Of a stretch of DNA of 52,724 bases, positions 6,374 through 33,525 are shown piece by piece. A program made the translations under genes and the position numbers. Source of the DNA: Thermoplasmata archaeon (GTDB taxonomy: Archaea; Thermoplasmatota; Thermoplasmata; Lutacidiplasmatales; UBA184); the NCBI GenBank assembly GCA_027315455.1, contig DAHUXZ010000013.1, forward strand, positions 1-52,724, given 5' to 3'. How positions within the stretch are numbered: the stretch's first letter is position 1; the number at the start of each line of letters is the position of its first letter. The notes beneath the pieces are model-generated. The model saw nothing but the letters and a program-made list of their open reading frames with translations. It was not told where the DNA came from and made no database searches.

Positions 6374-7647
6374 TCGACGCCCTCCCGCCCGTCGTGGAGC
6401 GAGGCGAACGCGCGCCAGTAGTCGGGATAGGACTTCTCCACCGCCGTCGCATCGCCGAGGACGGACCGACCGTCCGCGGCGAGGGCCGCGACGGACGCGC
6501 TCATGATCATGCGGTGGTCGTGGAGGCCGGTCAGGTGAAGGCGGCGGGCCGGGCGCCGGCCGCGGATCTCGAGGCCGTCGGACCGCGCCCGCACCGACGC
6601 GCCGAGCGCCCGCGCCAGGCGGACGGTCCCTTCCCGTCGATCGGACTCTTTGTGGACAACGTGAGCCGCGCCGAGGAGCCGCGAGGTCCCCGGGGTCACC
6701 GCCGCGACGGCCCCGAGGAGCGGGTAGAGGTCCGGCGAGGCGGTGAGGTCCGCCGCGAACCCCCGGAGCCGGCCCCCCCGGACCCGCGTCCCGCTGCGGG
6801 AGACGGTGACCCGGGCGCCGGCCCGGGCGAGGACGTGAAGGATCGCACGGTCGGCCTGGGGCCAGCCGGCGGGGACTCCCTGGACGAGCACATCTCCGTC
6901 CGAGAGCGCCGCGCCGGCCCAGAAGTAGGCCGCGGAGGAGGCGTCCCCCGGGACCCGGAACCCCGAGGCGCGGTAGCGCTGGGGCGCCGGGACGTGGTAG
7001 CTCGCCCCGCGGCGATGCACACGGACGCCGAAGGCGCGCAGCGTCGCACGGGTCGCCGCGATGTACGGGGCGGAGACCTCGCTCGCCGAGAGCCGGACGC
7101 GCGAGGGCCCCGCGAGGGAGGGGAGGACGAGGAGGAGCGCCGACAGGAACTGGGAGCTCGCCGTCGGGTCGAGCCGGACCGAGGACGGGACGAGCGGGCC
7201 GGTGATCTGGAGCCCCCAGGGACCTCCGGCCGGGGCCGGCTCGACGACGGCACCGGCGGCTTTTAGGGCGTCGAGGAGCGGTCGGATCGGGCGGCGGCCG
7301 AGCCCGGGGGCCCCCCGGAGCTCGACCGGGCCGCGGCGCGTGGCCGCGAGCGCGGCGAGGAAGCGCAGCGTCGTCCCCGATTCCCCGCACTCGATGCGGA
7401 CCGGGGCGCGCGTCGACCCGGTTCCTGGGCGAACGACCCATCTTCCGGGGCCGAGGTCGACCCGGGCCCCGAGCGCGCGGAGCCCCTCGGCCGTTCGACG
7501 GGTGTCCTCGGCATCGAGCGGGCCCTCGATCCGGGTCACCCCCCGGGTGAGGTACGCGGCGACGAGCGCGCGGTGCGTGTAGCTCTTCGACGGCGGGGCC
7601 ACGACGGTGCCGACCAGCCGCCGCGGCTCGACCGACGCGACGGTCAC
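6370..7647 (-). CDS. aroA: 3-phosphoshikimate 1-carboxyvinyltransferase (EPSP synthase)
   Basis: Transfers the enolpyruvyl group of PEP to shikimate 3-phosphate. The N-terminal PPSKSYTHRALVAA holds the substrate-binding Lys-Ser pair. ECGESGTTLRFLAALA is the PEP/glyphosate-region motif (Gly-Thr-Thr rather than the common Gly-Thr-Ala). LDPTASSQFLSALLL and the C-terminal HKESDR and HDHRMIMSASVAAL motifs complete the two inverse alpha/beta barrels. Length 425 aa is normal. The GTG start at 7647 overlaps the aroK stop (GTGA); the much longer open frame reading upstream is a shadow of aroK and aroDE. Confidence 0.96.
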   Translation of the reverse strand: MTVASVEPRRLVGTVVAPPSKSYTHRALVAAYLTRGVTRIEGPLDAEDTRRTAEGLRALGARVDLGPGRWVVRPGTGSTRAPVRIECGESGTTLRFLAALAATRRGPVELRGAPGLGRRPIRPLLDALKAAGAVVEPAPAGGPWGLQITGPLVPSSVRLDPTASSQFLSALLLVLPSLAGPSRVRLSASEVSAPYIAATRATLRAFGVRVHRRGASYHVPAPQRYRASGFRVPGDASSAAYFWAGAALSDGDVLVQGVPAGWPQADRAILHVLARAGARVTVSRSGTRVRGGRLRGFAADLTASPDLYPLLGAVAAVTPGTSRLLGAAHVVHKESDRREGTVRLARALGASVRARSDGLEIRGRRPARRLHLTGLHDHRMIMSASVAALAADGRSVLGDATAVEKSYPDYWRAFASLHDGREGVE

Positions 7648-8507
7648 CGTCCCTCCGGGCGGGTCGGCGGCACGAACGCGACGACCCACCGCTCGGCCTC
7701 GCCGACGGGCAGGGCTTCGTACAGGCGCGGGAGGCGCTCGGTGGGCGCGACCGCCGCGAGGGTGGGGCCCATGCCGGAGACCCCGCAGCCGAGCGCGCCC
7801 TGGCGCTCGAGCTCGCGCCGCAGGGGTCGATAGTCGAGCCCGACGATCGCTTCGACGAGCTCGGTGTTGCGCTCCATCGCCTCGAGGTAGCGCCCCTCTC
7901 GGGCGAGGTCCCCCGCGGCCCGCCCCTCCGCCGCGCGCCGCGCGAACGCCTCCGCCCAATGGGTCGAGGGAAGATGGTGCGAACGGGGGACGTAGAGGAC
8001 GACCCCCCAGTCCGTTGGCAGCCGCTCGTGCCGAAGGACCTCTCCCGCGCGGACGTCCGTCACCACCGCTCCCCCGGCCACCGCGGCCAGGGCGTCGTCG
8101 AACGCCCCGGTGGCGCTGAGCCCGACCGAGCGGGCAACCTCCGCGGAGAGGCGCGCCACCTCGGACGCGTCCGGGTGCGTCCCGGCCGCGCGGGCGGTCG
8201 CGGCGATGACGGCGGCGCTCACGGCCGAGGAGCTCTTGAGCCCGCGCGCCGGCGGTATCTCGGAGCGGACGGAGACCGCCACCTTGAGGTCCCGGTCGGG
8301 GGCGAACCGGCGCAGCGCCACCCCGAGGGCCGCCCGGGTCAGGGGAGAGTCCGCCGAGGCGTCGATGGCCACGCGGGCGCCCGCGCGCGCCGGCGCCAGG
8401 TCGACCGTCGCGTCGACGGGGATCGACACCCCCGCGGCGCTCCCGATGCCGGTGAACAGGGCGTTCACGAAGGAGATCGCGGCCGTGGTCCGGGCGGTCC
8501 CCTTCAC
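7644..8507 (-). CDS. aroK: Shikimate kinase, archaeal GHMP-kinase type
   Basis: ATP-dependent phosphorylation of shikimate by the archaeal enzyme, unrelated to the bacterial P-loop shikimate kinase. The GHMP ATP-binding motif is PPARGLKSSSAVSAAVIAA (about 87-105). A second conserved loop, GCGVSGMGPTLAAVAP, lies near the C-terminus. Length 287 aa. The GTG start at 8507 overlaps the aroDE stop (GTGA). Its presence is one of the strongest signs that the window is archaeal. Confidence 0.93.
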   Translation of the reverse strand: MKGTARTTAAISFVNALFTGIGSAAGVSIPVDATVDLAPARAGARVAIDASADSPLTRAALGVALRRFAPDRDLKVAVSVRSEIPPARGLKSSSAVSAAVIAATARAAGTHPDASEVARLSAEVARSVGLSATGAFDDALAAVAGGAVVTDVRAGEVLRHERLPTDWGVVLYVPRSHHLPSTHWAEAFARRAAEGRAAGDLAREGRYLEAMERNTELVEAIVGLDYRPLRRELERQGALGCGVSGMGPTLAAVAPTERLPRLYEALPVGEAERWVVAFVPPTRPEGR

Positions 8508-9991
8508 GCGAACGCCTCCGCGAGCGCGCCGGCGATCGCGGGCTCGGGGACCGGGGTGTCCCACCACCGCTCGAAGCTCGCGGCCGCCTGGTAGACGAGG
8601 AGGCGACGGCCATCCTCGTACGTCGCCCCCGCGGCCCGCGCGCGGTCCGACAGCCAGGGGTCGTCCGGGGCGTACACCATATCGAGCACGTGGACCCCGG
8701 GGCCGAGCGGCGGAGCGACGGGAAGCTCGATCGCGGCCTCGCCGGCGCGCCCGGCCGGCGTCGCGTGGACGAGCAGCCCCGAGCGCTCCGCGCCGCCGAT
8801 CGAAGCGCCGAAGGTGCGCGCGAGCGTCGCCACCGGCTCGGGCCGCCGCCCGAACAGGTGGGCGGGGATCGCCAGCTCGCGCGCCGCCGCGAGCGCGGCC
8901 CGGGCCGCACCTCCCGTGCCGATGACCGACAGGGACCGGCCGTCCCACGCCCCCGCGGACTTGAGCTCGCCCAGGCGTCGCAGCAGGGCGGCGAGGTCGG
9001 TGTTCGACGCCTCCACCCCTTCCGGCGCGAACGTGAGGGTGTTCGCGCAGCCGCACGCCTCGGCGTCCCGCGCGACGCGGTCGGCGAGGCGGCAGGCGGC
9101 CTCCTTGAACGGGTGCGTGACGTTCACGCCCCGGAACCCCCCCTGTGCGAGCCCGGGGATCGCGAGCGCGAGCTCCGTCTCGTCGGCGACCTCGAGCGGG
9201 AAGTAGAGGCCGGTGCGGCCGAGGGCGCGCATCCAGCGATGGTGGAGCACGGGGGATCGGCTGAACCCGATGGGGCGCCCGAGGACCGCGAAGAGGGGAG
9301 CGGAGGGGCCGGCGGAGAAGAAGCGGGCGAGGCGATCGCACGGGATCTGGCTTCCCTCGACCGGCGGTTCGGCACGCCGCTCCTCCGGCAGGGAGGCGAA
9401 GACGGCCGCCAGGGCGTACCGGGACGCCCACGCCCGGAGCAGGCCGCCCGCCCCGCCGGTCGTGTGGACGATCGCGCGGGCCTCGCCGGGACGCGGCAGG
9501 TACGGGATCACCTCGGCGAAAAGATGGGTGACGGTCGCCGGCTCGACGAGCTTGACGAGGCCGGCCCTGGGGTCGGCCGCCGCCAGGCGTCGGCGCAGCT
9601 CGGGGCCCGGCACGGGTCCCGTGAGGTGCTCGGAAAGGAGGATGCGGCCGTGCAGCTTCTCGAGCTCCCCGTCCGGGAGGGGGAGGTCCCGGGCGCTCTC
9701 GAGGTCGAGGAAGCGGAACGGCTGGGCCGCCCACTGGCGGAGCCGGACGCGCCGTTCCTCCGGCGCGCTCGGTCCCTCGCCTCCCTCGGCCTGCGAGCGG
9801 AAGGTCGCGATCGCGGGCAGGGCGAGCGGGAACAGCGCGTCGACCCGGTCCCGTTCCGATTCCGGCCATCGGTCGAGGCGGATCTCGACCACGTCGGCCC
9901 CCGCCCGGGCCGCGAGCTGCGCCCCGTCGCGGGCCGCGGCGACGGTCCGGGCCGGCAGCGAGGCGACGACGAGGGGACGGGGCGGCGTCAT
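8504..9991 (-). CDS. aroDE: Bifunctional 3-dehydroquinate dehydratase (type I) / shikimate dehydrogenase
   Basis: Two consecutive shikimate-pathway enzymes in one 495-residue chain. Residues 1-225 form the type I dehydroquinase: VVEIRLD (35-40), the catalytic His in LLSEHLTG (His122), the Schiff-base lysine in GLVKLVEPATVTHLF (Lys147) and SQIPCDRLARFF. Residues 233-495 form AroE: GRPIGFSRSP (238-247), NVTHPFK with catalytic Lys296, CANTLTF, SNTDLAALL and the NADP-binding GTGGAARAAL (358-367). The order matches the plant DHQ-SDH fusion. In many archaea these are separate genes. ATGA overlap with aroB' upstream and GTGA overlap with aroK downstream. Confidence 0.95.
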   Translation of the reverse strand: MTPPRPLVVASLPARTVAAARDGAQLAARAGADVVEIRLDRWPESERDRVDALFPLALPAIATFRSQAEGGEGPSAPEERRVRLRQWAAQPFRFLDLESARDLPLPDGELEKLHGRILLSEHLTGPVPGPELRRRLAAADPRAGLVKLVEPATVTHLFAEVIPYLPRPGEARAIVHTTGGAGGLLRAWASRYALAAVFASLPEERRAEPPVEGSQIPCDRLARFFSAGPSAPLFAVLGRPIGFSRSPVLHHRWMRALGRTGLYFPLEVADETELALAIPGLAQGGFRGVNVTHPFKEAACRLADRVARDAEACGCANTLTFAPEGVEASNTDLAALLRRLGELKSAGAWDGRSLSVIGTGGAARAALAAARELAIPAHLFGRRPEPVATLARTFGASIGGAERSGLLVHATPAGRAGEAAIELPVAPPLGPGVHVLDMVYAPDDPWLSDRARAAGATYEDGRRLLVYQAAASFERWWDTPVPEPAIAGALAEAFA

Positions 9992-11019
9992 CGCTCGTCG
10001 ATCGCCTCCTCGACGGGGTGCCCGAGATGGCGCGCGGGCGGGAACGCCGCCCCGTAGACGGTCGTCCCCTCGGTGAGGGCGGTCGTCGCCGTCCGACCGG
10101 CCGGGGTGGAGAGGCGGACGGTCTCCGCCTCCTGCAGGAAGAGCGTGAACCGGCGGCCCCCCCGCTCCGCCTCGATCAGCACGAGCGGACGACGCTCGAC
10201 CTTGAGGCGCCCGACGCGAGCGACCCGCGCCTGGGCCGTCCCCGGCCGCGCGACGAGGACGGAGTCGCCCGGCTCGAGCTCGGTGAGGTACCGGGTCGTG
10301 CCGTCGGCCAGAAGCACGTAGGAGTGGGCCGCACCGGCGTTCACCCGGAACGGCCGTGGGCGGGTGAACCTCGAGCCTTCGGCCTCGCTGGGGACGTGGA
10401 AGAGGAACCCGGCCGCGCTGCCGACGAGCAGCCCCTCCTCGGGGGCGAGGAGGGACGTGGTGTCGACGATCACCCGGTCGCCCAGGCCGGCCGAGGCGAT
10501 CCGACGCAGATCAACGAGCTCCCAGGGGATCGCGAGCTTCGGCACCGGCTCGAGGACGCCGACGAGCTCGTCGAGCGCGGCGGGGCCGGTCACTTCGACC
10601 ACCACGGCGTCGGCGCCCGCACCGAGGGCGCCGAGGGCGCCCGGGACGTCGCGGGGCCGGTCGGTGACGACCCATAGCCGGTAGCGGTCCCCGCGGTGCG
10701 CAACGGCGTTCTCCGTGGGGATCGATCGATCGTCATCCCACCGGATCGCGACCGTCGCGCGGTCCCGGGCCCCCGCGACGGCCGCCGCGAGTCCTTCCGG
10801 GTCCCCGACCCGCCGGATCGATATCCGAAGGGAACCGCCCGTCGCGTCGGCGATCGCGCGCCCGTCGTATGCGAGCATCTCCTCGCCCGGGCCGGCGGGC
10901 TCCGGCTCCGTTGGTGGCAGCGCGAACCGGCGGAACCCCCGGCGGCGGGCGAGGTCGAGCAGCGCCGAACGGTCTCCCCGCTCCGGGGCGGTCGGCGCGA
11001 CGATGACCCGGTCGTCCAT
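9988..11019 (-). CDS. aroB': 3-dehydroquinate synthase II
   Basis: The archaeal enzyme that oxidatively deaminates and cyclises 2-amino-3,7-dideoxy-D-threo-hept-6-ulosonate (ADH) to 3-dehydroquinate with NAD+. Characteristic blocks are IPTENAVA, IPWELVDLRRIA, LAPEEGLLVGSAAGFLFHVPSEAEGSRF (read as three linked motifs) and RPFRVNAGAAHSYVLL followed by a C-terminal beta-rich region. Length 343 aa fits the family (MJ1249 type). It starts 8 bp after aroA' and overlaps aroDE by 4 bp. Confidence 0.95.
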   Translation of the reverse strand: MDDRVIVAPTAPERGDRSALLDLARRRGFRRFALPPTEPEPAGPGEEMLAYDGRAIADATGGSLRISIRRVGDPEGLAAAVAGARDRATVAIRWDDDRSIPTENAVAHRGDRYRLWVVTDRPRDVPGALGALGAGADAVVVEVTGPAALDELVGVLEPVPKLAIPWELVDLRRIASAGLGDRVIVDTTSLLAPEEGLLVGSAAGFLFHVPSEAEGSRFTRPRPFRVNAGAAHSYVLLADGTTRYLTELEPGDSVLVARPGTAQARVARVGRLKVERRPLVLIEAERGGRRFTLFLQEAETVRLSTPAGRTATTALTEGTTVYGAAFPPARHLGHPVEEAIDER

Positions 11020-11027
11020 GGGTCGAG

Positions 11028-11780
11028 CTACGCCCCGCCGTGGAGGACCGCGGCGACCCGACGCGCGAGGGGCCCGACCGGGCGACGCTGGAAGAGGTTG
11101 CGGCCGATGCAGATCCCCGCCCCTCCGGCGCGAACGCTCTCCCGGACCCGTTCGAATAACGCCTCCTCATTGTCGAGCCGCACCCCACCCCCGATGAGGA
11201 CCGGGACCGGGGTCGTGCGGACGAGGTCGCGGAACGCCTCGGGGGAGCCCGGGTAGCTCGTCTTGACGATGTCGGCGCCGAGGTCGGCGGCCGCCCTCGC
11301 CGCATGCTGGATCTCCGCCGGGGTCGCGCCGGACGGCTTCTTGACGTAGGCCATGCACATGAGCGGCAGGCCGAGCCGACGGCACTGGTCGACCGCCGTC
11401 CCGAGGTCCGCGAGCATCGCGCCCTCCTCGGGGATCCCGAAGTTGACCTGGACGGAGAGGAGGTCCGCGCCGAGGGCGACGGCCTCCTCGGCGGTGCCGA
11501 CGAGGACCTTGCGGTCCGGTGCCGGCCCGAGCGAGGTCGACGCCGAGACGTGTACGCCGAGGAGGGTCCGGGGCCCGAGCACCGGGACGATGTCCCGGAC
11601 CGCCCCCTTCGTCACGACGAGGAGATCGACCCCCGCCGCCTCGAGCTCCTGGGCGAGCGGGGCCGTCGCCTCGAGCCCATCGATCGGTCCCATCGACACC
11701 GAGTGGTCGAGCGGGACGGCGAAGAGCCGTCGGTCCCCGCCGGGGAAGATCCGTCGCAGCCTCAGTTGCGTTCCGTACAT
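11028..11780 (-). CDS. aroA': 2-amino-3,7-dideoxy-D-threo-hept-6-ulosonate (ADH) synthase
   Basis: A DeoC/FbaB-type class I aldolase that condenses aspartate semialdehyde with a 6-deoxy-5-ketofructose phosphate to make ADH, replacing DAHP synthase in many archaea. FAVPLDHSVSMGPIDGLE at the N-terminus and IGGGVRLDNEEALFE with GAGICIGRNLFQ at the C-terminus are typical; the Schiff-base lysine is probably the one in DIVKTSYPG. Length 250 aa. It is the first gene of the operon. The ATG at 11780 is preceded by a Shine-Dalgarno-like GGAGG about 10 nt upstream, and I saw no clear TATA box close by. Confidence 0.92.
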   Translation of the reverse strand: MYGTQLRLRRIFPGGDRRLFAVPLDHSVSMGPIDGLEATAPLAQELEAAGVDLLVVTKGAVRDIVPVLGPRTLLGVHVSASTSLGPAPDRKVLVGTAEEAVALGADLLSVQVNFGIPEEGAMLADLGTAVDQCRRLGLPLMCMAYVKKPSGATPAEIQHAARAAADLGADIVKTSYPGSPEAFRDLVRTTPVPVLIGGGVRLDNEEALFERVRESVRAGGAGICIGRNLFQRRPVGPLARRVAAVLHGGA

Positions 11781-16248: not shown

Positions 16249-18453
16249 ATGGGGGCTCGAAGTTCTTATCCCACCGCCGGCGTGGCGTTCTCGCGGTACG
16301 ACGTGACGGGTCCCCGACGCACTTCCTTGGCACCCGCGGCCCTGGGACACCGTCGGGGAAGACCCCGGGCCGCCGTCGGGATGCTTCTCGGCGCGACGGC
16401 GTTCGGGCTCACCCTCGTCCTCGTCCTCGGAGGCGGGCTCGCCGCGGGCCACACGTCGTCGGCGGTCGCCCGAACCGGGCGGGCCGGGACCGAGCTCCCC
16501 GCCGGGACCGCGGCCACGACGTCCGCCGCCGCGACGTACCCGCTCTCGCTCGACATCGGTTCGCAGCCGGCCGCGATCTGCGCCGCCACCAGTCTCGGTT
16601 GTCCGGCGGGGACCGGCCTGGCCCGGGTCGGCCTCTCGGCGAACCCGGCCGCCGGTCCGACGGCGGCCTGGCCCGCCGTGCAGATCGCCTTCGTCATCGA
16701 AACGACCTCCTACGACGGGGTCCTCGGCACGGACCGCTCCGACCAGCTCGACAAGTGCGCGGCGGTGAGCAGCACCGCCCCGGCCTGCGAGGAATCGAAC
16801 GGCGTCCCGTTCTTCGTTGCGAACGCCCAGCAGATCGCGAACGCGATCCAGCTGGCCAACCCGCGGTCCGCCGTCTCCTTCGCGCTCGTCGACTACTACG
16901 ACGCGGCGGGCGAGCCCTGGGACGACACCGATGGACCGGAGTACAACGTCGACATCGGCACCTTCGTCCCCGCGAACGCGTTCGGGAGCCTCGTGCGCTC
17001 GACGTTCCAGCAGACCGTCATGGGAGGGACCTGGTACTCCTGGGACCAGGACCTCGACAACAACTTCCTCGACTCCTCCTCGATCACCGCGCTCTACGGC
17101 GCCATCATCGGGAGCGACCTCAACTGGACCAACAATGCCCACCACGTGATCGTCTGGATGGGCTCGTCGGCACCGCGCGACCCGTCCTACCCGGAGGACT
17201 ACTGCGTGAGCCCTTCGGAGTGGAACGTCTGGGGGCCCCCGTCGGACTGCTTCAGCCAGACGTGCGAGCCGTCGTACGCCTTCGCGAACGGCGTGAGCCC
17301 CCAGTGCGAGGGGTGGGTGCACTCCCAGGACGGCAACCCGGCGGACTCCATCGCCGCGCTCGCGCATACCGCCCCGGCGTGCGTCGGGTCGATCGGGGGA
17401 ACGTGCACGATCGACACCATCGACCTGTGGACGACCACGACCGACCCGTTGTCGCCGGGGTGGCCGGCGGCGAGCTCCTTCGTGAAGATCGGGGGCGGGC
17501 CCGGCGGCCGAGAGGTCCAGGCGAACGTCGCCAACGTCATCGCCGCCGGCTGCGACCTCGCCGCCGCGACGGGCGGCTCCTGGTCCGGGCCGGGCTTCGA
17601 GAGCTGCCCGAATGGGCTGGACGGCAATCTCCAGTACGTCAACTTCGGCAGCTCGATCGACAGCCCGAACCTCAACAATCCGTCGCTGTTCGAGGCGTTC
17701 CGCACGATCAGCTTCGGGCCGGTGTTCCACACCGAGCTCGCCGCCGGGACCGACGTGCCGATGTTCGAGTTCGTCGCCTACGGTACGATCCAGGTCGCGC
17801 CGGCTCCGGAGTGGTCCGTGGTCTGCGACACCCCGACCGGCTTCCTGTCGACCTGCCAGCGCGCGCCGACGATCCTCCACCAGGGCGGCATGACCTACTT
17901 CGGGTGGAACTTCAGCACCGTGGCCGCGGACAACCAGTTCTACGTGGGCGATGCCTGGTCGGTCGAGTTCTACGTCGTCGCGACCGGGCCGCCCTACGCC
18001 CTCGTCCCCGTCGACGCCTGCACCACCACGACCTGCATCGCCGACGGAAGCGGCAGCCTCAACGGGCTGTTCACCCGGGCGACCTACCTCGCCCAGCAGA
18101 ACACCACCCTCGAGGTCCAGTCGTTCCCACCCGCGCAGGTGACGGTCGAGCCGTCCACCTCGCCGCTCCCGCCCCCGAGCGTGCCGCCGGCTCCGCCCCC
18201 CGCGCCCCCCGGCATCCTCGCTCCGGTCATCGCGCCGGTGCCGATCGCGGCACCGATCCCGCTCGCCTCGACGGTCGGGATCGGGAACGTCTCGGTCCAG
18301 GCGGCGGCCGCGGGGTTCCTCGGCGCCGGGTTCATGCGCGTGACCGTGAGGAACCGGCCGATCGCGATGGCGGTCGCGGCGAAGTCCGGGCTCGCCTCCT
18401 CGCGGTTCGAGAAGGTATCGGAGACCCCGCCGACGTTCAGCCGGATGGAGTAG
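16249..18453 (+). CDS. Large secreted or membrane-anchored surface protein
   Basis: Up to 734 residues, no assigned family. A basic N-terminus is followed by a hydrophobic segment (about 45-66, AVGMLLGATAFGLTLVLVLG). The exported part has many cysteines and N-glycosylation sequons. Residues about 145-250 (WPAVQIAFVIETTSYDG, then AIQLANPRSAVSFALVDYYD) look like the first strand and following helix-strand of a von Willebrand A-like domain, but the MIDAS DxSxS is replaced by ETTSY. A Pro-rich spacer (about 640-665) precedes a hydrophobic C-terminus. A TTCTTATC at 16263-16270 lies inside the frame, so translation may really begin at GTG 16303. Probably a cell-envelope protein. Confidence 0.7.
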   Translation: MGARSSYPTAGVAFSRYDVTGPRRTSLAPAALGHRRGRPRAAVGMLLGATAFGLTLVLVLGGGLAAGHTSSAVARTGRAGTELPAGTAATTSAAATYPLSLDIGSQPAAICAATSLGCPAGTGLARVGLSANPAAGPTAAWPAVQIAFVIETTSYDGVLGTDRSDQLDKCAAVSSTAPACEESNGVPFFVANAQQIANAIQLANPRSAVSFALVDYYDAAGEPWDDTDGPEYNVDIGTFVPANAFGSLVRSTFQQTVMGGTWYSWDQDLDNNFLDSSSITALYGAIIGSDLNWTNNAHHVIVWMGSSAPRDPSYPEDYCVSPSEWNVWGPPSDCFSQTCEPSYAFANGVSPQCEGWVHSQDGNPADSIAALAHTAPACVGSIGGTCTIDTIDLWTTTTDPLSPGWPAASSFVKIGGGPGGREVQANVANVIAAGCDLAAATGGSWSGPGFESCPNGLDGNLQYVNFGSSIDSPNLNNPSLFEAFRTISFGPVFHTELAAGTDVPMFEFVAYGTIQVAPAPEWSVVCDTPTGFLSTCQRAPTILHQGGMTYFGWNFSTVAADNQFYVGDAWSVEFYVVATGPPYALVPVDACTTTTCIADGSGSLNGLFTRATYLAQQNTTLEVQSFPPAQVTVEPSTSPLPPPSVPPAPPPAPPGILAPVIAPVPIAAPIPLASTVGIGNVSVQAAAAGFLGAGFMRVTVRNRPIAMAVAAKSGLASSRFEKVSETPPTFSRME

Positions 18454-18468: not shown

Positions 18469-19809
18469 TCACGCCCCGCCACCGGCCGGTGGCGACCTCC
18501 CGCCGGCGTTCGGCGTCGGCGGAGGGTGGCGGCGCAGGTCCCGGGCGAGTTCCTCGCCCCGGGGCGTAAGGCGGTAGACCTTGAGCCGGCGGGGCTGTCC
18601 GCGGACGTGGCGGACGTCCTCGGAAAGCACCCCGGCGGCGACGAGGCGGCGCAGGACGTTCGTGAGCGCGTTCTGGCGGACCCCGAGCGCGACGGACATT
18701 CCCGGCTGGCTGAACCCGAGGGGGGCCACCTCGTCCGGCCCGAGGACGCCCTGCCGGGCGAGGTGGAGGACGATCCGCTGGGAGAGCCGAAGGGCCTCGC
18801 GGCTGACGAGGGGAGCCCCCGGTCGCGCCGCGGTGGGCGCTCCCCGTGCCTCGGGCCCGGCGTCGGCGGGCGCCGGGGAGAGGCCCTCGGCGGGTCTCGG
18901 GGTGCTGGCGACCCCGTACGGGCCCTCGGGGGGCGCGGTCGATAGAACGGAAGCGGCCCGGTCCCCGGTCTCCGCCGTGGCCGGGCCCCGCGGTGCGTCC
19001 GGGGCTCCGGACGGTGCGGGCCCCTCGACGGTCGGAGCCGCCGGAGCGACCGCCTTCGCCGAGGGCTCGTCGGTCGGCTCCTCCCGCCGCCGCCGCCGTC
19101 CCTCCCAGCGCCCGATCACGAGACCGCCGGCCACCGCGCCGGCGATCGCGCCGAGCCCGAGGCCGATCAGAAGGTCCGCATCGATCGCGGCCGGGGGCTC
19201 CGGCGGCGGAGCCCCGCCGGCGGTCACGTTGACGATGACGGCGGCCACCGCCGAGTGGCCGGCGCTGTCGGTCACGTTGATCGCGACACGGTAGCTCCCC
19301 GGGGTGACGAACGAGTACGACACGGTGGGACCGGAGCCGGAGCCGAGCGTCCCGAACGACCACAGGAACGACGGGTACGTCCCCGTTCCCCCGGTCGCGA
19401 CGGCGACGAACGTCACCTCGAGCGGAGCCGTCCCGCTCCGGTTCGACGCCTGGATCGTGACGGCGAGCGGCTGCGGCGTCAGCGTGACCACGACGGACTG
19501 CTGTGCGGTCGCGGTCCCCTCGGAGACGGTCAGGACGACCGTGTACGCGCCCGGTCCGCCATAGCGATGGGACGGGGAGGCGAATCCCGCGCCCGAGCCG
19601 TTCAGGTAGTTCCCGTCACCGAAGTTCCACGCGTATCCGGTCGGCGTGCCCGGCAGCACGGTCGTCGAGAAGGAGACCTGGAACGGGTCGGAGACGGAGG
19701 GAGTGTAGGAGATCGAGACCTGGAAGCTGGGCCGGGGGACCGCGCCCGCGAGCGGCGCCGCGGCGCCGATCGCCATCCCGAGCAGGCCGACCGCGATGGC
19801 GACGGCCAC
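18469..19809 (-). CDS. Membrane-anchored PKD-domain / winged-helix regulator
   Basis: A 446-residue protein that appears to span the membrane once. A signal peptide or anchor (1-23) precedes two extracellular PKD domains: about 28-112 with YAWNFGDGNY, and 113-200 with FLWSFGTLGSG and VTPGSYRVAINVTDSAG. A TM helix (about 207-230) is followed by an Arg-rich stop-transfer and a 110-residue Pro/Ala/Glu linker. The cytoplasmic winged helix (about 340-430) has SQRIVLHLARQGVLG, VALGVRQNALTNVLRRLVAAGVL, RHVRGQPRRLKVYRLT and a final helix GEELARDLRRH. Known family members with such wHTH domains bind DNA; the sensing role of the PKD domains is inference. GTG start; 79 bp after the four-PKD gene and probably co-transcribed with it. 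Confidence 0.8.
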   Translation of the reverse strand: MAVAIAVGLLGMAIGAAAPLAGAVPRPSFQVSISYTPSVSDPFQVSFSTTVLPGTPTGYAWNFGDGNYLNGSGAGFASPSHRYGGPGAYTVVLTVSEGTATAQQSVVVTLTPQPLAVTIQASNRSGTAPLEVTFVAVATGGTGTYPSFLWSFGTLGSGSGPTVSYSFVTPGSYRVAINVTDSAGHSAVAAVIVNVTAGGAPPPEPPAAIDADLLIGLGLGAIAGAVAGGLVIGRWEGRRRRREEPTDEPSAKAVAPAAPTVEGPAPSGAPDAPRGPATAETGDRAASVLSTAPPEGPYGVASTPRPAEGLSPAPADAGPEARGAPTAARPGAPLVSREALRLSQRIVLHLARQGVLGPDEVAPLGFSQPGMSVALGVRQNALTNVLRRLVAAGVLSEDVRHVRGQPRRLKVYRLTPRGEELARDLRRHPPPTPNAGGRSPPAGGGA

Positions 19810-19888
19810 CGCCGGCGATGCGGTCCGCTGGCGACGGGGCCCGAGTCGGGCCGCCCGACCGGCCGGCGGCGGCCGGGGGGGCGGCTGC

Positions 19889-21328
19889 CTAGCGTTCCTC
19901 TTCCAGTTCCCGGACGAGTTCCTCGCCTTCCTTCCGCAGTTGCCGGTCGCGGGTCCGCCGAAGGGACCAGCGGCCGACCAGGATTCCCACCCCCGCGGTC
20001 GCCGCGAGCAGAAGCGCGATCACCCCAAGCGTAGGGAGCCCGAGGACCGATGCGGGCAGCCACGGTCCGCCCGCAGTTCGCACCACGATCTGGGGGAGGA
20101 CCGAGGTGTTCACATGGCCCGCGGCATCCTCGACCTGCACCGCCGCAGTGTAGGTGCCCGGTGCGGCGTACACGTGCGTCACCGGCACGCCGGGAACCGA
20201 AGAGCCCACGGTCCCGTCCCCGAACGTCCAGCGGACGGTGTAGGGAGGAGTGCCCCCGCTGATCGTCGCCAGGAAGGAGGCCGCGAGCGGGGCGACGCCG
20301 TTGGCCGGCGTCGCGGTCGTCTCGAGGAAGAGGGAGGGCCCGGTCCGGACGCGCACCGTCGCGCTCGCGCCCGCGACGACGGTGCCGTTCGTCACGGCAA
20401 GGGTGCCCTGGATCGAGTAGTTCCCCGCGGCGGAGTACGGGTGAGCGAACGTCACGGGGTCCGTTCCGTTCCACCCCGCGGGTCCGACCGCGCAGGGAGA
20501 GCCGTCCCCGAAGCAGACGGTGAGGGCGTACGGTCCTCCGGGTCCGTGCGAGAAGGCGGTGACGGAGACCGCCCCCGGGGCATCCAGGGCCGCCGGGGTG
20601 GCCGTGAGGGTAAGGTTGGCCGGCCCGCCGCCGGCACTCGGCCCGACATCCACGACGGTCCCGCCCGTCGCGACGTTGCCGGTCGAGTCCCGGAGCGTCG
20701 CGACCGCCGTGAACGACCCGGCCGACTGGTAGACGTGCCGGACGATCGCCCCCGTGCCGCTGCCCCCGTCGCCGAACTGCCACTGGGTGGTGTAGCCCGA
20801 CGTGAGGTTCGCGCCGGAGGCGTTCGCCCAGAAGGTGACCGTGAGCGGAGCCGGCCCGCTCCCGGGGTTCGCGGCCACGGCCACCGCGAGCTGTCCGCTA
20901 CCGCCGTTCACGACGATGGTCGTGTTGGTCTCAACGAACCCGGTTCCCGAGTCGGAGACCTGGGTGAGGACGTCCCAGATCCCCGCGCTCTGGAAGGTGT
21001 GGGAGACGTTCTGACCGGTGACCTCGCCGGCGTCGCCGAACTGCCATTCGATTTCGTACGGAGGGCAGCCACCGGTGACGTTGCTCGAGAACTGGACGGT
21101 CAGCGGGACCGCCCCCGAGGTGGGCGTCGCGGTCACAGCGACCGCGAGGGGGCCGCTGCACACCCACGGGCGGACGGCCGCCAGGGGAAGGGGACCGGCC
21201 GGGAGGGCGGATGATCGTGAGGGGGCCATCGCGCCCGCACCGGCGGTCGTGACGGCGCTGAGGAGCAGAAGCGAGAGGAGGGCGGGGACGAGGGGCCCGC
21301 CCCGGGGGGGACGCCGCCTCGGTCGCAT
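19889..21328 (-). CDS. Cell-surface protein with four PKD-type domains and a C-terminal anchor
   Basis: 479 residues. The ATG at 21328 starts an Arg-rich n-region and hydrophobic core (LVPALLSLLLLSAV), a signal peptide. PKD-type repeats follow: about 60-145 (WQFGDAG), 147-235 (WQFGDGG), 238-330 (diverged, VCFGDGSPC) and 333-420 (RWTFGDGT). A TM helix (LPTLGVIALLLAATAGVGILVG) and a charged cytoplasmic tail ending ELVRELEEER close the protein. The start is supported by a minus-strand TATA box (GGTTATCAAC, 21350-21359) 26 nt upstream; the open frame continues further upstream without promoter support. Probably acts in adhesion or as a surface ligand-binding partner of the downstream PKD-winged-helix protein. 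Confidence 0.85.
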   Translation of the reverse strand: MRPRRRPPRGGPLVPALLSLLLLSAVTTAGAGAMAPSRSSALPAGPLPLAAVRPWVCSGPLAVAVTATPTSGAVPLTVQFSSNVTGGCPPYEIEWQFGDAGEVTGQNVSHTFQSAGIWDVLTQVSDSGTGFVETNTTIVVNGGSGQLAVAVAANPGSGPAPLTVTFWANASGANLTSGYTTQWQFGDGGSGTGAIVRHVYQSAGSFTAVATLRDSTGNVATGGTVVDVGPSAGGGPANLTLTATPAALDAPGAVSVTAFSHGPGGPYALTVCFGDGSPCAVGPAGWNGTDPVTFAHPYSAAGNYSIQGTLAVTNGTVVAGASATVRVRTGPSLFLETTATPANGVAPLAASFLATISGGTPPYTVRWTFGDGTVGSSVPGVPVTHVYAAPGTYTAAVQVEDAAGHVNTSVLPQIVVRTAGGPWLPASVLGLPTLGVIALLLAATAGVGILVGRWSLRRTRDRQLRKEGEELVRELEEER

Positions 21329-21503: not shown

Positions 21504-22265
21504 TCAGTCTCGCCCCCCGTGCCGGCGGGACCGGGCTCGCAGGCGCAGTCCACCGAAGGCCGCCACGGCGCCCAGGGCGCCGAGCAGGGCCAAGACCAGG
21601 CCTAGCGGGATCCCTGCCACGGCCGTCGGCGCACCGAAGGCCGCCAGCGGCGAGGCGGCCCCGCCACCGAAGCTCTGCGGGACCCCGTTGGCTCCGCTCG
21701 TGGGCGGGTTCGGCGAGAGGCCCGACCCGCCGGAGCCGTTGTCCGGGCTGTTGTCCGAGCTGTTGCCGGTGCTGTTGTCGTAGCTGCCGGAGCCGTTGTC
21801 CGGACTGCTGTCCGAGCTGTTGCCGGTGCTGTTGTCGTAGCTGCCGGAGCCGTTGTCCGGGCTGTTGTCCGAGCTGTTGGCGGTGCTGTTGTCGTAGCTG
21901 CCGGAGCCGTTGTCCGGACTGTTGTCCGAGCTGTTGCCGGTGCTGTTGTCGTAGCTGCCGGAACCGTTGTCCGGGCTGCCGCTCGAACCGTTGCCCGTGC
22001 CGTTGCCGTCCGAGCCTCCGTCCAACGGGTGGGCGCCGGCCATCGGGCTCACGGCTTGGGTCGGTGAGCCATGGGCGATCGCCAGGTGGGCTCCGAAGGC
22101 GAGCGCCAGTCCGACCGCGAAGAGTCCTCCGATCAGCAGGAGCCCGAGTCGAGGGGTCGGTCGGCGATGGCGGGGGCCTCGTGTCGGTGGGCCATGGTCG
22201 ACGTTCAGGGTCGGCGGGGGTTGCGTCCAGGTCGCTCCCTCAGTTGGCGGGTCCGGTTCGGACAT
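21504..22265 (-). CDS. Membrane protein with an Asn/Ser/Asp-rich tandem-repeat ectodomain
   Basis: 253 residues: a Pro-rich cytoplasmic N-terminus, a TM helix (about 41-65, LGLLLIGGLFAVGLALAF), a low-complexity region (about 78-190) and a second TM helix (about 215-240) before a basic tail. The low-complexity part is four 19-residue repeats, each with SPDNGSGSYDNST then GNSSDN. Each unit holds three N-X-S/T sequons (NGS, NST, NSS), so the exposed loop would be densely N-glycosylated, mucin-like. No enzymatic motif is visible. The ATG at 22265 is 30 nt from a minus-strand TATA-like GTATTTGAA. Function unknown; probably a cell-envelope spacer or shield. Confidence 0.72.
   Translation of the reverse strand: MSEPDPPTEGATWTQPPPTLNVDHGPPTRGPRHRRPTPRLGLLLIGGLFAVGLALAFGAHLAIAHGSPTQAVSPMAGAHPLDGGSDGNGTGNGSSGSPDNGSGSYDNSTGNSSDNSPDNGSGSYDNSTANSSDNSPDNGSGSYDNSTGNSSDSSPDNGSGSYDNSTGNSSDNSPDNGSGGSGLSPNPPTSGANGVPQSFGGGAASPLAAFGAPTAVAGIPLGLVLALLGALGAVAAFGGLRLRARSRRHGGRD
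21730..21990. repeat. 57-bp in-frame tandem repeat array (4 full copies plus partial)
   Basis: Full units at 21739-21795, 21796-21852, 21853-21909 and 21910-21966, with partial copies at both ends, nearly identical at the DNA level. The period is a multiple of three and encodes 19 residues, so copy number can change without breaking the frame. Differences between units are single substitutions (for example Thr-Gly versus Thr-Ala in copy 3). Confidence 0.95.
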
Positions 22266-22452: not shown

Positions 22453-25092
22453 ATGGGAGGAACGGTCCCTCCCCCCAGCGGCCCGGCGAGGGTGTCCCGG
22501 CGGCGGCGACCGAACATCTCCCGTCTAGTGCTCGTCGCCGTGGCGGCCGCCGCCCTTCTGCTGCCGGGCGTGGGCCGTACCGGAGCCGAGCCCGTCGTCC
22601 CCGGAGCCAGCGCCGCCGCGCCGGCCGCGGCGACGTCGAACCCCGCTACTTCTCGGGCCGGCACCGCCATGGCCGAACCGTCGGCCGCCGGCACTCCCTC
22701 CGTGGACGGGGTGTGGACGAACCTCTCGGCCCGCTCGGCGGCCGCCCCTTCGCCCCGCTGCTGCATGGGGTCGGCCTGGGACGCAGCGACCGGCCAGTTC
22801 CTGGTCTTCGGGGGCCTGCCGACCAGTCCGGCCGCCGCGAACAACGAGACGTGGGCGTACGCGAACGGGACGTGGCGGCTCCTCGACCCGAGCCGTGCCC
22901 CTCCCGCCCGCGGCTACCCGGCGATGGCCTACGACCCCGCCCTGGGGACCGTGATCCTGTTCGGTGGGTACGATCCCGCTCTCGAAACGTATCTCAACGA
23001 CACGTGGGTGTTCGCGAACGGCACCTGGAGCGAGGCGCCGCGAGGGCCGTCCCCGCCGGCCCGTATCGGGGAGTCCCTGGTCTATGACGCGTCGGGCTCC
23101 GACCTCATCCTTTTCGGAGGATACATCGCCAACACCTCGACCTACCCCGTGACCATCTCGCCGGCGAACGATACCTGGTCGTACACGGCTCATGGGTGGG
23201 CGCGGCTCGCCCTGCCGGTGGCCCCGAGCCCCCGGGCCTTCGCCCAGGCGGCGACCTGCCCGCCGCGGAACGGTCTTCTGCTGTTCGGCGGGACGGGAGG
23301 CGCCGCTCTCTTCAACGACACCTGGTCGTTCTCCGCGGGGGCGTGGTCCCCGCTCGAGACCCCCGTCGCCCCTCCCCCCACCTCGGGGGGGCTCGCCGCC
23401 TGGGACCCCGTCGGGGGCTACGTCGTCCTGACCGGAGGCACGGCGGGCAGCTCGGGGACGTTCTCGTCGGCCTCGTGGGCGTACCTCAACGGCACCTGGG
23501 AGAATGTCACTACCTCCCTCTTCCCTCCGGGTCGGGACGAAGCCGGCGGGGGATGGGACCCGGCGCTGGGCGCCCTTGTCGAGTTCGGAGGCGCGGTCAA
23601 CGTCTTCGACACTCCCGAGCTCAACGACACCTGGGCCTACTTCGACCCGCTCCAGGTGCTTTCGCCTCCGGGCCCCGTGGTGGCGGACGCCGGCACTCCG
23701 GTCGCGCTCTCGGTCGCCGCGAGCGGGGGGCTGCGGCCGCTCGGAGTGAACTGGACCTTCGGCGATGGCACGAACGGCTCCGGGGTTCCCGTGCACCACA
23801 CCTTCGCTGTACCGGGCGTGTATGACGTCGCGGTCGAAGTCCGGGACGCAAGCGGCGCCGCGGTCAACGCCTCCTCGACGGTCCAGGTCGCGGCGTACCC
23901 GGTCGCCGGCATCGTCGTCGCCCCGCCGACTCCCGACGCCGGCGTTCCCGCGGTGCTCACGGCCAACGTGAGCGGAGGGAGTGCCCCCTTCGCCCTGAAC
24001 TGGAGCTTCCCGAGCGGTCCGTCGGGGACGGGGAGCACCGTCGTCCACACCTTTTCGTCGCCCGGGGCGGCGGTCGTCTCCCTCACCCTGCGGGACGCGG
24101 CGGGGGCGACCCTCTCGGTCAACCGGACGCTGACGGTGGCCCGAGGGCTCGTCGTCACCGTCAGTTCCCCGCAGCCCGGGTCCGAGGTCGGGCGACCCGT
24201 CGCGTTCTCCGCGGCGATCGGGGACGGCGTGCCGCCGTACGGGGTCGCGTGGTCGTTCGGCGACGGGGCGGCGTCTTCGTCGTTCTCGCCCGAGCACATC
24301 TATCTCGCGCCGGGCAACTACACGGTCACCGCCGCGGTCACCGACGCCGCGGGGGGGAGCACGACCGGGGCGCTGCGGGTAGAGATCGCTCCCCCGCTCG
24401 GGGTGGCGGAGGTCGCGACCCCGCTCAACACGGACGTGGGCGGGGTGGTGACGCTCCTCGCGCGGACGACCGGCGGGGTGGGCCCGTTCGTCGACGCCTG
24501 GGCCTACGGGGACGGGACGACCGGGGCCGGGCCCGGGGCCGTGCATGCCTTCTCCGCCCCCGGGCGCTACGGGGTCACGATCTCGGTCACCGACGCCCGG
24601 GGGGCGAGCGCGACGGCGAACGCGTTCGTCGAGGTCCAGCCGGCGCCGACCGTCGCTCTCGAGGCCGGGGCCACGTCGGCGGCGGCCGGGACGACCCTCA
24701 CCTTCCGCGCGACCGTCCAGGACGGCCGGTCGCCGTTCGCGTTCACCTGGAACTTCGGGGACGGAACGGGAGCCTCCGGGCCATCGGTCGTGCACGCGTT
24801 CGCCGCTCCCGGGACCTACCGCGTGAGCGTCGCCGTGACCGACGCCGTGAACCTGAGCGCCGTGGCCTCGGCGAGCGAGACGATCGGCCCGCTGGCCGGC
24901 GCGCGCGCGACGGGACTCCCGATCTCCGCGGAGGTCGTGCCGATAATCGCATGGGGGGCCGTCGCCGCGGCGGTCTTCGCCCTCGTCGTCTACCGCCACC
25001 TCCTTCGGGAGCGCGGACCGCCTCCGCGCTCCGCCGCGAAGGACGCGGACGCCCCCCGGGGCGGCCCCGGCCGGCGGCGCCCAGTGCGCTGA
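22453..25092 (+). CDS. Surface protein with a Kelch-type beta-propeller and multiple PKD domains
   Basis: About 879 residues. Signal peptide (NISRLVLVAVAAAALLLPG) at 25-45. Residues about 85-410 hold six Kelch-like blades, seen as repeated FGG motifs and NDTWxF/Y-NGTW strands (for example LILFGGY, LNDTWVFANGTW, LLLFGGTGG). About five PKD-type domains follow (NWTFGDGTNGSG, NWSFPSG, AWSFGDGAASS, AWAYGDGTTGAG, TWNFGDGTGASG), then a TM helix (about 838-857) and a basic tail. ATG 22453 is supported by the TATA spacing; earlier in-frame starts give a tail with no signal peptide. Probably binds carbohydrate or protein at the cell surface. Confidence 0.87.
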   Translation: MGGTVPPPSGPARVSRRRRPNISRLVLVAVAAAALLLPGVGRTGAEPVVPGASAAAPAAATSNPATSRAGTAMAEPSAAGTPSVDGVWTNLSARSAAAPSPRCCMGSAWDAATGQFLVFGGLPTSPAAANNETWAYANGTWRLLDPSRAPPARGYPAMAYDPALGTVILFGGYDPALETYLNDTWVFANGTWSEAPRGPSPPARIGESLVYDASGSDLILFGGYIANTSTYPVTISPANDTWSYTAHGWARLALPVAPSPRAFAQAATCPPRNGLLLFGGTGGAALFNDTWSFSAGAWSPLETPVAPPPTSGGLAAWDPVGGYVVLTGGTAGSSGTFSSASWAYLNGTWENVTTSLFPPGRDEAGGGWDPALGALVEFGGAVNVFDTPELNDTWAYFDPLQVLSPPGPVVADAGTPVALSVAASGGLRPLGVNWTFGDGTNGSGVPVHHTFAVPGVYDVAVEVRDASGAAVNASSTVQVAAYPVAGIVVAPPTPDAGVPAVLTANVSGGSAPFALNWSFPSGPSGTGSTVVHTFSSPGAAVVSLTLRDAAGATLSVNRTLTVARGLVVTVSSPQPGSEVGRPVAFSAAIGDGVPPYGVAWSFGDGAASSSFSPEHIYLAPGNYTVTAAVTDAAGGSTTGALRVEIAPPLGVAEVATPLNTDVGGVVTLLARTTGGVGPFVDAWAYGDGTTGAGPGAVHAFSAPGRYGVTISVTDARGASATANAFVEVQPAPTVALEAGATSAAAGTTLTFRATVQDGRSPFAFTWNFGDGTGASGPSVVHAFAAPGTYRVSVAVTDAVNLSAVASASETIGPLAGARATGLPISAEVVPIIAWGAVAAAVFALVVYRHLLRERGPPPRSAAKDADAPRGGPGRRRPVR

Positions 25093-29370: not shown

Positions 29371-30273
29371 ATGCCCGCGCCGGATGCCTCCCCGTTCCGG
29401 ATGATCGACGCGCCGCGCGCTGCGGCGGGCAAGTCCGACGCGACCTTCGCGATCGGCCGCCTCGACCGGGGCGCGGTCGGCTGCGTGATCGCGATCGTCT
29501 CCGGGAAGGGTGGGGTGGGCAAGAGCTTCGTTACGTGCGAGATCGCCTGCGAGCTCCGCCGCGAGGGGGCGTCGGTCGGGGTGCTGGATGCGGACATCAC
29601 CGGTCCGTCCGTCGCGCGCCTCTTCGGCCTGTCCGAGGTTCCTCAGCTCAACGCGGACGGTCGCACGATCCGTCCGGCCGAGAGCGCGACCGGGATACGG
29701 GTCATGTCGATGGCCCTGGTCACGGCGACCTCGAAGGTCCCGCTCATCTGGCGGGGGCCGATGGTCAACAGCGCCATCCGGGGCCTCTACAAGGATACCG
29801 CCTGGCCCCCGCTCGACTACCTGCTCGTGGACCTGCCGCCGGGAACGAGCGACGCCCCGATGACCGTCTTCCAATCGCTCGACCCCGACGGCGTGATCCT
29901 CGTCAGCGCCCCGACCGAGCTCTCGGCCGAGGTCGTCGGCAAGGCCGCCACGATGGCAAAGACGTTCGAGGCCCCGATCCTCGGGCTCGTCGAGAACATG
30001 GCCTACCTCACCTGCCCCCATGGGGCGAGGGTCGACGTCTTCGGCCCCTCCCGCGGCAACGAGTTCGCCGTGCGCATGGGCGTGCCGTACCTGGGGAGCC
30101 TGCCGATCCGCCCGGAGATCCCGGCCCTCTGCGACGCGGGCCGCATCGAGGAGGTCCGCCTTCCCGAGGCGGGGGTCCTGGCGCGCAGGGTGCGCCTCCT
30201 CGCGGACCGTCTGGCCCGCGCCCGTCATCCCCGAGGGTCGGCCGCGCCCGCCCCCCCCGGGGGACCGGCATGA
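29371..30273 (+). CDS. Mrp/NBP35-like P-loop ATPase
   Basis: 300 residues of the Mrp/ApbC family, scaffolds or carriers for Fe-S clusters. IAIVSGKGGVGKSFVT carries the deviant Walker A; DADITGPSVARLFG, WRGPMVNSAIRGLYKD, YLLVDLPPGTSDAPM and VSAPTELSAEVV follow. The cluster-binding CPHC of typical Mrp proteins reads LTCPHGARVDVFG here, so the second Cys is Gly and bridging cluster binding is doubtful. Start chosen at ATG 29371, shortly after a TATA-like GATTAAGG. It heads an operon with dsrE/F/H-like genes, suggesting that it serves sulfur-oxidation Fe-S proteins or transfers sulfur. Confidence 0.88.
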   Translation: MPAPDASPFRMIDAPRAAAGKSDATFAIGRLDRGAVGCVIAIVSGKGGVGKSFVTCEIACELRREGASVGVLDADITGPSVARLFGLSEVPQLNADGRTIRPAESATGIRVMSMALVTATSKVPLIWRGPMVNSAIRGLYKDTAWPPLDYLLVDLPPGTSDAPMTVFQSLDPDGVILVSAPTELSAEVVGKAATMAKTFEAPILGLVENMAYLTCPHGARVDVFGPSRGNEFAVRMGVPYLGSLPIRPEIPALCDAGRIEEVRLPEAGVLARRVRLLADRLARARHPRGSAAPAPPGGPA

Positions 30274-30509
30274 CGGCCCCCAACGGCTCCCCACCGGCCC
30301 CGACGGCCCGCATCCTCCGGCGCCTGGGCGATCCGTTCGAGGCCGAGGCCGCCGAGTCCGCGCCGCCGGCGACCCATCCCGCGCACGTCGCCCTGCTCAA
30401 CCGCGCGTTCTTCGACTCGACGGTCGACATTGGCGGCATCGTGCGGATCGACGCGACCACGTACATCTGCACCCGGGCGGGCTGGCGCGTCCATGCCGGG
30501 CCGGCCTGA
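30270..30509 (+). CDS. Small hypothetical protein
   Basis: 79 residues, not recognised. Ser/Pro/Ala-rich N-terminus, then LLNRAFFDSTVDIGGIVRIDATTYICTRAGWRV, a short beta-rich segment with one Cys. The ATG overlaps the mrp stop (ATGA) and the stop is 10 bp from the dsrE-like start, so it belongs to the sulfur operon. Its codon positions look as GC-rich as its neighbours, in favour of a real gene. Confidence 0.6.
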   Translation: MTAPNGSPPAPTARILRRLGDPFEAEAAESAPPATHPAHVALLNRAFFDSTVDIGGIVRIDATTYICTRAGWRVHAGPA

Positions 30510-30519
30510 GGGGCGACCG

Positions 30520-30876
30520 ATGGGCCGTCTGGGGATCCTCCTGTTCACCTCCCCTGTCCAGCACCGCGCCTCCGAGACGGTGTACGGGATCGCCGCCGCC
30601 GCCGCGGACGCGGGCCATGACGTGGGGGTCTTCTGCCTCGGAGACGGGGTCTACAACACCAGCCGGGCGATCGCTGCCGCCAGCGAGGAGAGCCCGGTCC
30701 GACGGCTCGCCTCCCTCGGCGGGCGCATCGGGCTCGTGAGCTGCACGACCTGCGCGCGCTTTCGCGGCCTTACGGAGCCGGACCTGATCGCGAACGCGCG
30801 GCTGGGAACGCTCGAGGACCTCACCGACCTCCTCGCCCGCGCCGACCGGTTCCTGACCTTTTCGGCCGAGGAGTGA
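30520..30876 (+). CDS. DsrE-like sulfur carrier
   Basis: 118 residues of the DsrE/TusD family, cytoplasmic proteins that carry persulfide sulfur on a conserved Cys. Visible are LGILLFTSPVQHRASETVYGIAAAAADAGHDVGVFCLGDGVY, the usual first half, and LVSCTTCARFRGL, which matches the DsrE active-site loop (C..C...RG). It is followed at once by DsrF- and DsrH-like genes, so the three probably form a hetero-hexamer like DsrEFH/TusBCD. Start ATG 30520. Confidence 0.8.
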   Translation: MGRLGILLFTSPVQHRASETVYGIAAAAADAGHDVGVFCLGDGVYNTSRAIAAASEESPVRRLASLGGRIGLVSCTTCARFRGLTEPDLIANARLGTLEDLTDLLARADRFLTFSAEE

Positions 30877-30879
30877 GCG

Positions 30880-31236
30880 ATGCGTCGGATCCTCCTCTGG
30901 GTTCGCCATCCGCCGTTCTCCACGAACCATCTCGCCGAGGCGATCCGGGTGGCGGCGATGGCCTCGGCCCTCGAGCTGGAGGTCACCTTCGCGTTCGTCG
31001 AGGACGGGGTCTGGGCGCTGGCCGCCGGTCAGTCCCCGCACCGGCTCGGGCCGCCGATCGGTTCGGTCCTGCGGGGGATCGTCACCGAGGCGAGCCCGGC
31101 GCTCGTCGACGGCGCCTCCCTGGCCGCGCGGGGCCTGACGGCCGCCCGCCTCGTCCCCGATGTCCCCGTCCGCGTGGTGGACGCCGAGGAGCTGGCCGAC
31201 CGGCTGGTCGCGAGCGATTCGGTGGTGACCCAGTGA
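30880..31236 (+). CDS. DsrF/TusC-like protein
   Basis: 118 residues. RRILLWVRHPPFSTNHLAEAIRVAAMASALELEVTFAFVEDGVWALAAGQ is the DsrF/TusC pattern with the FVEDGVWAL strand-loop. No Cys is present, as is usual for the non-catalytic F/C subunit. It lies 3 bp after the DsrE-like gene and its stop overlaps the GTG of the DsrH-like gene. Confidence 0.78.
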   Translation: MRRILLWVRHPPFSTNHLAEAIRVAAMASALELEVTFAFVEDGVWALAAGQSPHRLGPPIGSVLRGIVTEASPALVDGASLAARGLTAARLVPDVPVRVVDAEELADRLVASDSVVTQ

Positions 31237-32017: not shown

Positions 32018-32030
32018 AAAGTCGTAAATA
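32005..32030 (+). promoter_or_regulatory. Promoter of the tusA-dsrE2-sqr operon with an operator half-site
   Basis: TATA-like TAAATA at 32025-32030. Just upstream, TGGACAAATGAAAA (32006-32019) matches the left half of the TGGACAATTGTCCA motif seen elsewhere in the cluster; the right half is degenerate. The TATA box is about 24 nt from GTG 32051. Confidence 0.5.
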
Positions 32031-32050
32031 GTGTGCCACGTTCTCGCACG

Positions 32051-32308: not shown

Positions 32309-32324
32309 GGAGGTCGAAACGAAG

Positions 32325-32780: not shown

Positions 32781-32805
32781 GCGCGGTGCCCGGGGGGGAC
32801 GGAGA

Positions 32806-33500: not shown

Positions 33501-33525
33501 CGGAGCAATTCGGAGGAGATCGAAG

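Follow-up and report, generated by a model that had tools for sequence, protein, structure and literature searches.

On the minus strand of a contig from a Thermoplasmata archaeon (GCA_027315455.1, contig DAHUXZ010000013.1, window positions 1 to 52,724, the window being the whole stretch of 52,724 nucleotides analysed), two adjacent genes encode a surface protein and a membrane-tethered regulator that ends in a winged-helix (wHTH) domain of the DNA-binder type. The two proteins probably work jointly, carrying an outside signal to DNA without a kinase. With a confidence slightly above even, we read the pair as a two-gene, kinase-free transmembrane signalling cassette of the co-component type, in which the partner would signal through its cytosolic tail to the wHTH. 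Archaeal routes from an outside signal to transcription are poorly known, and this cassette, if the reading is true, would be the archaeal equivalent of ToxR/ToxS, evolved from unrelated parts: a lineage-wide pairing in which one dedicated winged helix serves many kinds of surface domain by way of a short conserved tail. The genomes compared are MAGs, the counts rest on loci, and genes were called with a home-made caller whose codon model was trained on this window.

Anatomy, orientation and constraint of the regulator

The regulator gene (18469..19809, minus strand; 446 aa from a GTG start, with the ORF confirmed open) encodes, in this order, a signal peptide, two PKD domains, a TM helix, a linker and a winged helix. 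The PKD ectodomains (residues ~27-197, 19219..19731, minus strand) are recognised by Pfam (PKD_4 8.7e-22, PKD 7.3e-17), and an AF2 model of the full regulator chain, computed with 19 sequences, shows residues 30-196 as two beta domains with pLDDT >90. In the same model residues 214-235 (19105..19170, minus strand; hydropathy 2.2) form a helix, taken as the TM segment since TM calls were based on hydropathy and AF2; residues 236-334 (18808..19104, minus strand) are a Pro/Ala-rich, variable and disordered cytosolic linker with pLDDT mostly <50; and residues 337-427 (18529..18801, minus strand) are a winged helix with pLDDT >90. An earlier note on this DNA had described two PKDs outside, one TM, a disordered linker and a winged helix inside, and this description is borne out by Pfam, by AF2 and by the residue counts given below. 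The note had also stated that neither kinase nor receiver is needed; histidine-kinase or receiver function was rejected, as the regulator protein contains no such domain.

The stretch GRWEGRRRRREE lies directly inside of the regulator TM, with no K or R before the TM and six after it. Across 22 family members, K and R in the 15 residues before the TM add up to 6, against 79 after it, and 139 N-glycosylation sequons are outside, against 2 inside. On account of these K/R and sequon distributions the wHTH is placed in the cytosol. Its location outside the cell, which the earlier note had named as an outcome that would overturn its reading, was rejected on the same positive-inside and sequon counts. 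The TM is weakly hydrophobic in the homologues L051, L055, L084 and L143, and below threshold in L148.

Compared with the nearest orthologue (L125, 69% identity overall), dN/dS is 0.147 in the wHTH, 0.18 and 0.15 in the PKDs, 0.29 in the hinge and TM, and 0.69 in the linker, whose identity is 34%. The PKDs and the wHTH are under purifying selection; both folded ends of the protein matter, and the sequence of the tether between them does not. Against the more distant L126, low dN/dS is left in the wHTH only (0.17). The PKD-TM-wHTH architecture, for which the earlier note had suggested a search in Thermoplasmatota, recurs with the same part order in 26 regulators, and this recurrence, together with the low dN/dS, indicates that the architecture is no accident. 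An origin of the ORF as a high-GC artefact was rejected on account of dN/dS and of the AT-rich homologue L069, which belongs to another family of the order, has 36% GC, and keeps the two PKDs, TM and wHTH along with a three-PKD partner ~35 bp upstream.

Modelled by AF2 in isolation, the wHTH reaches a pLDDT of 95.2 with the order a1-a2-a3-b-wing-b-a4, and the model ends at the last wHTH helix with no further helix after it, the dimer helices of MarR, PadR and HxlR having been considered in this respect. Its PDB fold matches are MarR, MepR, PadR and HxlR structures, several of them DNA complexes, at VIA Z 10.8-11.8; they include MarR 3voe (VIA Z 11.8, rmsd 2.9, 83 aligned), the PadR-family structure 3hhh (VIA Z 11.3, rmsd 2.0, 83 aligned) and HxlR 7bze (VIA Z 11.0, rmsd 2.4, 81 aligned). 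Searches of Pfam and NCBIfam left the domain without a named family. Taken alone, the window wHTH reached none of the Pfam gathering cut-offs (PadR 19.5 bits with a cut-off of 27, E 0.001; HxlR 18.9 bits with a cut-off of 20.8, E 0.0013), and the L069 homologue passed that of HxlR (21.8 vs 20.8 bits). In the alignments Q, R, H, V, RR, Y and G are invariant, the recognition helix (18637-18675, minus strand) is basic and conserved, and so is the RGxPRR wing (18568-18627, minus strand); the loss of basic residues in homologues, against which the earlier note had asked its proposal to be checked, did not appear.

The lineage is that of Lutacidiplasmatales, an uncultured order described from acidic soils (PMC9287336). 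Of 61 genomes from the genus, order and class, 49 contain relatives of the wHTH, and the named wHTH-bearing records are Thermoplasmata MAGs, including Candidatus Lutacidiplasma silvani. Within the order, 62 relatives carry the wHTH as a C-terminal or short-chain domain: 26 have two PKDs and a TM (L069 included), 17 a TM only, 16 neither, and three a Kelch/PKD-type ectodomain with a TM. Outside the order, nearly all opened matches are N-terminal domains of larger chains, and those checked are STAND-type ATPases. These NTPases of Thermoplasmata (ATPase_2/AAA, some with TPR; L107, L110, L111) share the wHTH family (HHalign 99.9%, 29% identity) but bear it N-terminally on a soluble ATPase, whereas in the regulator it is C-terminal behind PKD-TM, and their wHTHs form a clade apart from those of the regulators (support 100/99). 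At L099 and L104, in the class but outside the order, wHTH genes lie directly behind those of secreted-looking proteins of 1380-1632 aa, and L104 combines the wHTH with about ten TMs. The C-termini of these neighbour proteins resemble each other and, we presume, alpha-2-macroglobulin receptor domains; the arrangement could represent a remote form of the pairing described next.

The upstream partner and its cytosolic tail

The partner gene (19889..21328, minus strand) encodes a four-PKD surface protein with a C-terminal TM (PKD_4 5.8e-37, four stretches), its start being uncertain between ATG 21328, ahead of the signal peptide, and ATG 21463. It is separated from the regulator gene by 79 bp (19810..19888, minus strand) with 89% GC, no TATA-like run and no AT run longer than 2, which makes co-transcription likely, as the earlier note had supposed. 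The likely operon begins with a gene (21504..22265, minus strand) for a small membrane protein that contains N/S/D/G repeats such as NGSGSYDNSTGNSSDNSPD; at the corresponding position, the two nearest orthologous loci (L045/L125, L126) have small TM genes of 174 and 154 aa.

In all 58 testable cassettes, a count of phylogenetically non-independent loci, the next gene upstream on the same strand encodes a surface protein with a C-terminal TM (264-1296 aa as called); PKD genes make up 3.4% of the other genes nearby. The kind of partner is constant across regulators with ectodomain and TM (25), with TM only (17) or with neither (16), and the partner ectodomains themselves differ among cassettes, being PKD, Kelch or YncE-like propellers. 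Since the partner is present even where the regulator lacks ectodomain or TM, we regard it as the invariant outside component; the regulator can do without an ectodomain and TM of its own, and what stays constant is an outside domain, a TM, a tail helix and the wHTH. The genes as called are spaced from -4 bp up to a few hundred bp, and the 4-bp gene overlap at three loci makes translational coupling likely. Neighbour comparison showed only the partner to be conserved beside the regulator, and no conservation of the genes downstream of it was found in the cassette neighbourhoods. Two further cassettes were observed in the host genome, one at C33:34000-41000 (L158) with a two-PKD partner and the tail EEEGNAIVRDIEE, and one at C12:11000-17500 (L171) with a PKD partner and the weak motif RHQGNDLL.

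The cytosolic tail of the window partner, GRWSLRRTRDRQLRKEGEELVRELEEER (19892..19975, minus strand), contains a conserved motif, RKEGEELVRELEEER (19892-19936, minus strand), detected by a cross-validated profile. The consensus of the tail helix is approximately [RK]REGExLVRELE, with basic residues followed by EG[EN]xLVxxL; besides the window, examples are EEEGNAIVRDIEETK from a same-genome paralogue on C33, RREGNELIDRIRAP and RSEGEEWVRELRDE. When the motif was learned without prior alignment and with 10-fold cross-validation, 52 of the 58 partner tails outscored all 101 control tails, taken mostly from neighbouring genes (AUC 0.953), the six that did not being those of L143, L055, L148, L064, L081 and L084; shuffled tails gave under half of the total motif score. 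The motif is absent from the L069 partner tail and from 18 other PKD surface-protein tails of the same genome, and it is retained with unrelated membrane-proximal ectodomains (median similarity 0.133 vs 0.074 to controls). Tail and wHTH distances correlate (Mantel rho 0.37, 0/2000 permutations as high), which is as expected for a pair inherited as a unit and by itself no proof of contact. The matching of tails to the residues of their own wHTH was not significant, with 304/2000 permutations as good and no pair-specific covariation, and the conservation of the tail could come from common descent of the pair.

At three loci (L074, L076, L082) a single chain unites a partner-like ectodomain (Kelch and/or PKD), a TM and this same wHTH. 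Natural fusion is a usual hint of two proteins acting together. Upstream of L074 and L082 no motif-bearing partner was found; L076 starts at a contig edge. The divergent neighbour of the window operon (22528-25092, plus strand) encodes a Kelch propeller, five PKDs and a C-terminal TM, has neither wHTH nor tail motif, and resembles the ectodomain of the Kelch-PKD-TM-wHTH fusions L074 and L082.

A profile made from the tails only selects, in 54 of 58 regulators, the final helix of the wHTH, and does so in register; the likeness is seen between RKEGEELVRELEE of the partner and LTPRGEELARDLRRH of the regulator. The median score on this helix is 8.1 vs 5.1 for the null 95th percentile, and below the 99th percentile of random windows; because the helices are homologous, the match comes close to a single observation, and the resemblance is taken as a lead only. 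On sequence grounds one might imagine a new archaeal kinase-free class in which the tail mimics the last wHTH helix and acts as a switch on the regulator through competition for an interface used in dimerisation or packing, a proposal that we consider unlikely.

Proposed mechanism and alternatives

In the co-component model, the partner ectodomain (PKD here; Kelch or YncE-like propeller elsewhere) would bind polysaccharide, the envelope or a neighbouring cell, and the tail helix would dock on the regulator, with the wHTH or its vicinity as the likeliest site, and would keep the regulator either inactive or active at the membrane. A ligand or contact outside would alter the pairing of partner and regulator, and the wHTH, on its tether of ~100 residues, would then change its hold on promoter DNA, probably including that of surface-protein genes. 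The extra PKD pair of the window regulator perhaps pairs outside with the partner PKDs.

The earlier note had instead proposed a self-sufficient one-component sensor with the four-PKD protein as a plausible partner or target. Such a regulator, whose own PKD pair senses and whose wHTH acts, with the upstream protein as ligand or target gene only, has its full anatomy within a single chain, and against the nearest orthologue its ectodomain is as constrained as its wHTH; however, sister regulators without ectodomain or TM retain the same kind of partner, and the partner tail is intracellular and conserved. We hold this reading to be unlikely: the upstream partner in 58/58 cassettes and the conserved cytosolic tail motif speak against self-sufficiency, and of the note's second suggestion the partner role stands, more strongly than the word "plausible" would suggest.

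Operon arrangement in all cases, together with the existence of soluble regulator versions, would also fit a co-transcribed autoregulator, whose wHTH would be a repressor or activator of its own surface-protein operon and would not contact the partner, the tail binding an assembly factor, the cytoskeleton or the export machinery. This would leave unexplained why most regulators are anchored in the membrane and why the tail motif is restricted to wHTH partners; moreover, when palindromic operators of 12, 16 and 20 bp were sought in front of 43 genes, the scores did not exceed those of control upstream sets and the operon fronts yielded no operator, and we judge such autoregulation decidedly unlikely. 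The long disordered tether, a TM rich in small residues and the occurrence of anchor-free soluble sister wHTHs bring to mind a released fragment, the wHTH being freed by proteolysis in the TM or linker upon outside contact; this appears quite improbable, the linker/TM alignment being devoid of a conserved cleavage motif and the neighbourhood of a conserved protease-like gene.

Several results weigh against the co-component model: the operator search gave no DNA target, six of the 58 partner tails did not outscore all controls, the L069 partner has no motif, and the matching of tails to their own wHTH was not significant. A wHTH can be protein-binding instead of DNA-binding, which also speaks against the co-component model, yet the idea of a docking module that joins two surface proteins in a complex and is not a transcription factor, to which the wHTH family of the STAND ATPases and the likeness of the tail motif to the last wHTH helix lend something, seems highly improbable given the conserved basic recognition helix and RGxPRR wing and nearest folds that include DNA-bound MarR/MepR/PadR/HxlR.

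Relation to known membrane-bound regulators

Archaea are known to have transcription factors bound to the membrane (ArnR, PMC6396743), and such factors are widespread (PMC10269533). TTRs are a broad known kind in bacteria and archaea, most commonly single-pass (Demey et al. 2023, PMC10269533), and like them the window regulator joins a TM region and a DNA-binding domain in one chain, the former predicted by hydropathy and AF2, the latter by AF2 and PDB fold with scores below the Pfam cut-offs. The text on TTRs names no PKD and no Thermoplasma-type example, and the partner tail and anchor-free sisters lie outside the TTR definition (PMC10269533).

A close parallel is offered by ToxR/ToxS and VtrA/VtrC (Kinch et al. 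2022, PMC9214523), which likewise consist of adjacent co-transcribed genes, one for a membrane-tethered wHTH and the other for a membrane protein that has an outside domain, without phosphorelay. In our cassettes an adjacent same-strand membrane partner is present in 58/58, and gaps and overlaps point to co-transcription. Those pairs (PMC9214523) differ in having an N-terminal wHTH of the ToxR type, a downstream gene for a lipocalin-like partner, and contact in the periplasm. In the archaeal cassettes a MarR/PadR-like wHTH follows the TM at the C-terminus, and the gene upstream supplies a PKD/Kelch/YncE-like partner with a conserved cytosolic tail. By this comparison the archaeal cassette is analogous to ToxR/ToxS, not homologous.

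The characterised archaeal membrane-bound case is ArnR (PMC6396743). ArnR and ArnR1 of Sulfolobus acidocaldarius resemble the window regulator as archaeal membrane-bound HTH regulators of surface structures, but they have an N-terminal HTH, a putative HAMP, two C-terminal TMs and a sensor near the TMs, so that domain order and TM count differ; they have no large PKD ectodomain, and no tail-bearing partner is described for them (PMC6396743). In the literature searchable here we found no paper that connects PKD domains to a membrane-bound regulator of the wHTH type, or to Thermoplasmatota. The earlier note's remark that no archaeal system of exactly this type has been described thus holds for the papers searched, with a smaller novelty than it implied, ArnR (PMC6396743) and TTRs (PMC10269533) being known. 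The cassette offers a directly testable, predicted contact between a tail peptide of ~15 residues and a domain of ~90 residues, and a marker for sensory surface proteins in uncultured archaea.

Elsewhere in the window, the gene convergent with the regulator (16381-18453, plus strand) encodes a secreted-looking protein of 690 aa with no Pfam match, and L045 has in its place a 723-aa gene with the same C-terminus. To judge from reading the translations by eye, a long series of genes at 30270-48501, of DsrE/TusA-like, heterodisulfide-reductase-like and lipoate-like types, looks like an sHdr-type sulfur-oxidation cluster, and a gene row at 2824-11780 (minus strand) resembles an aromatic amino acid (shikimate) pathway operon.
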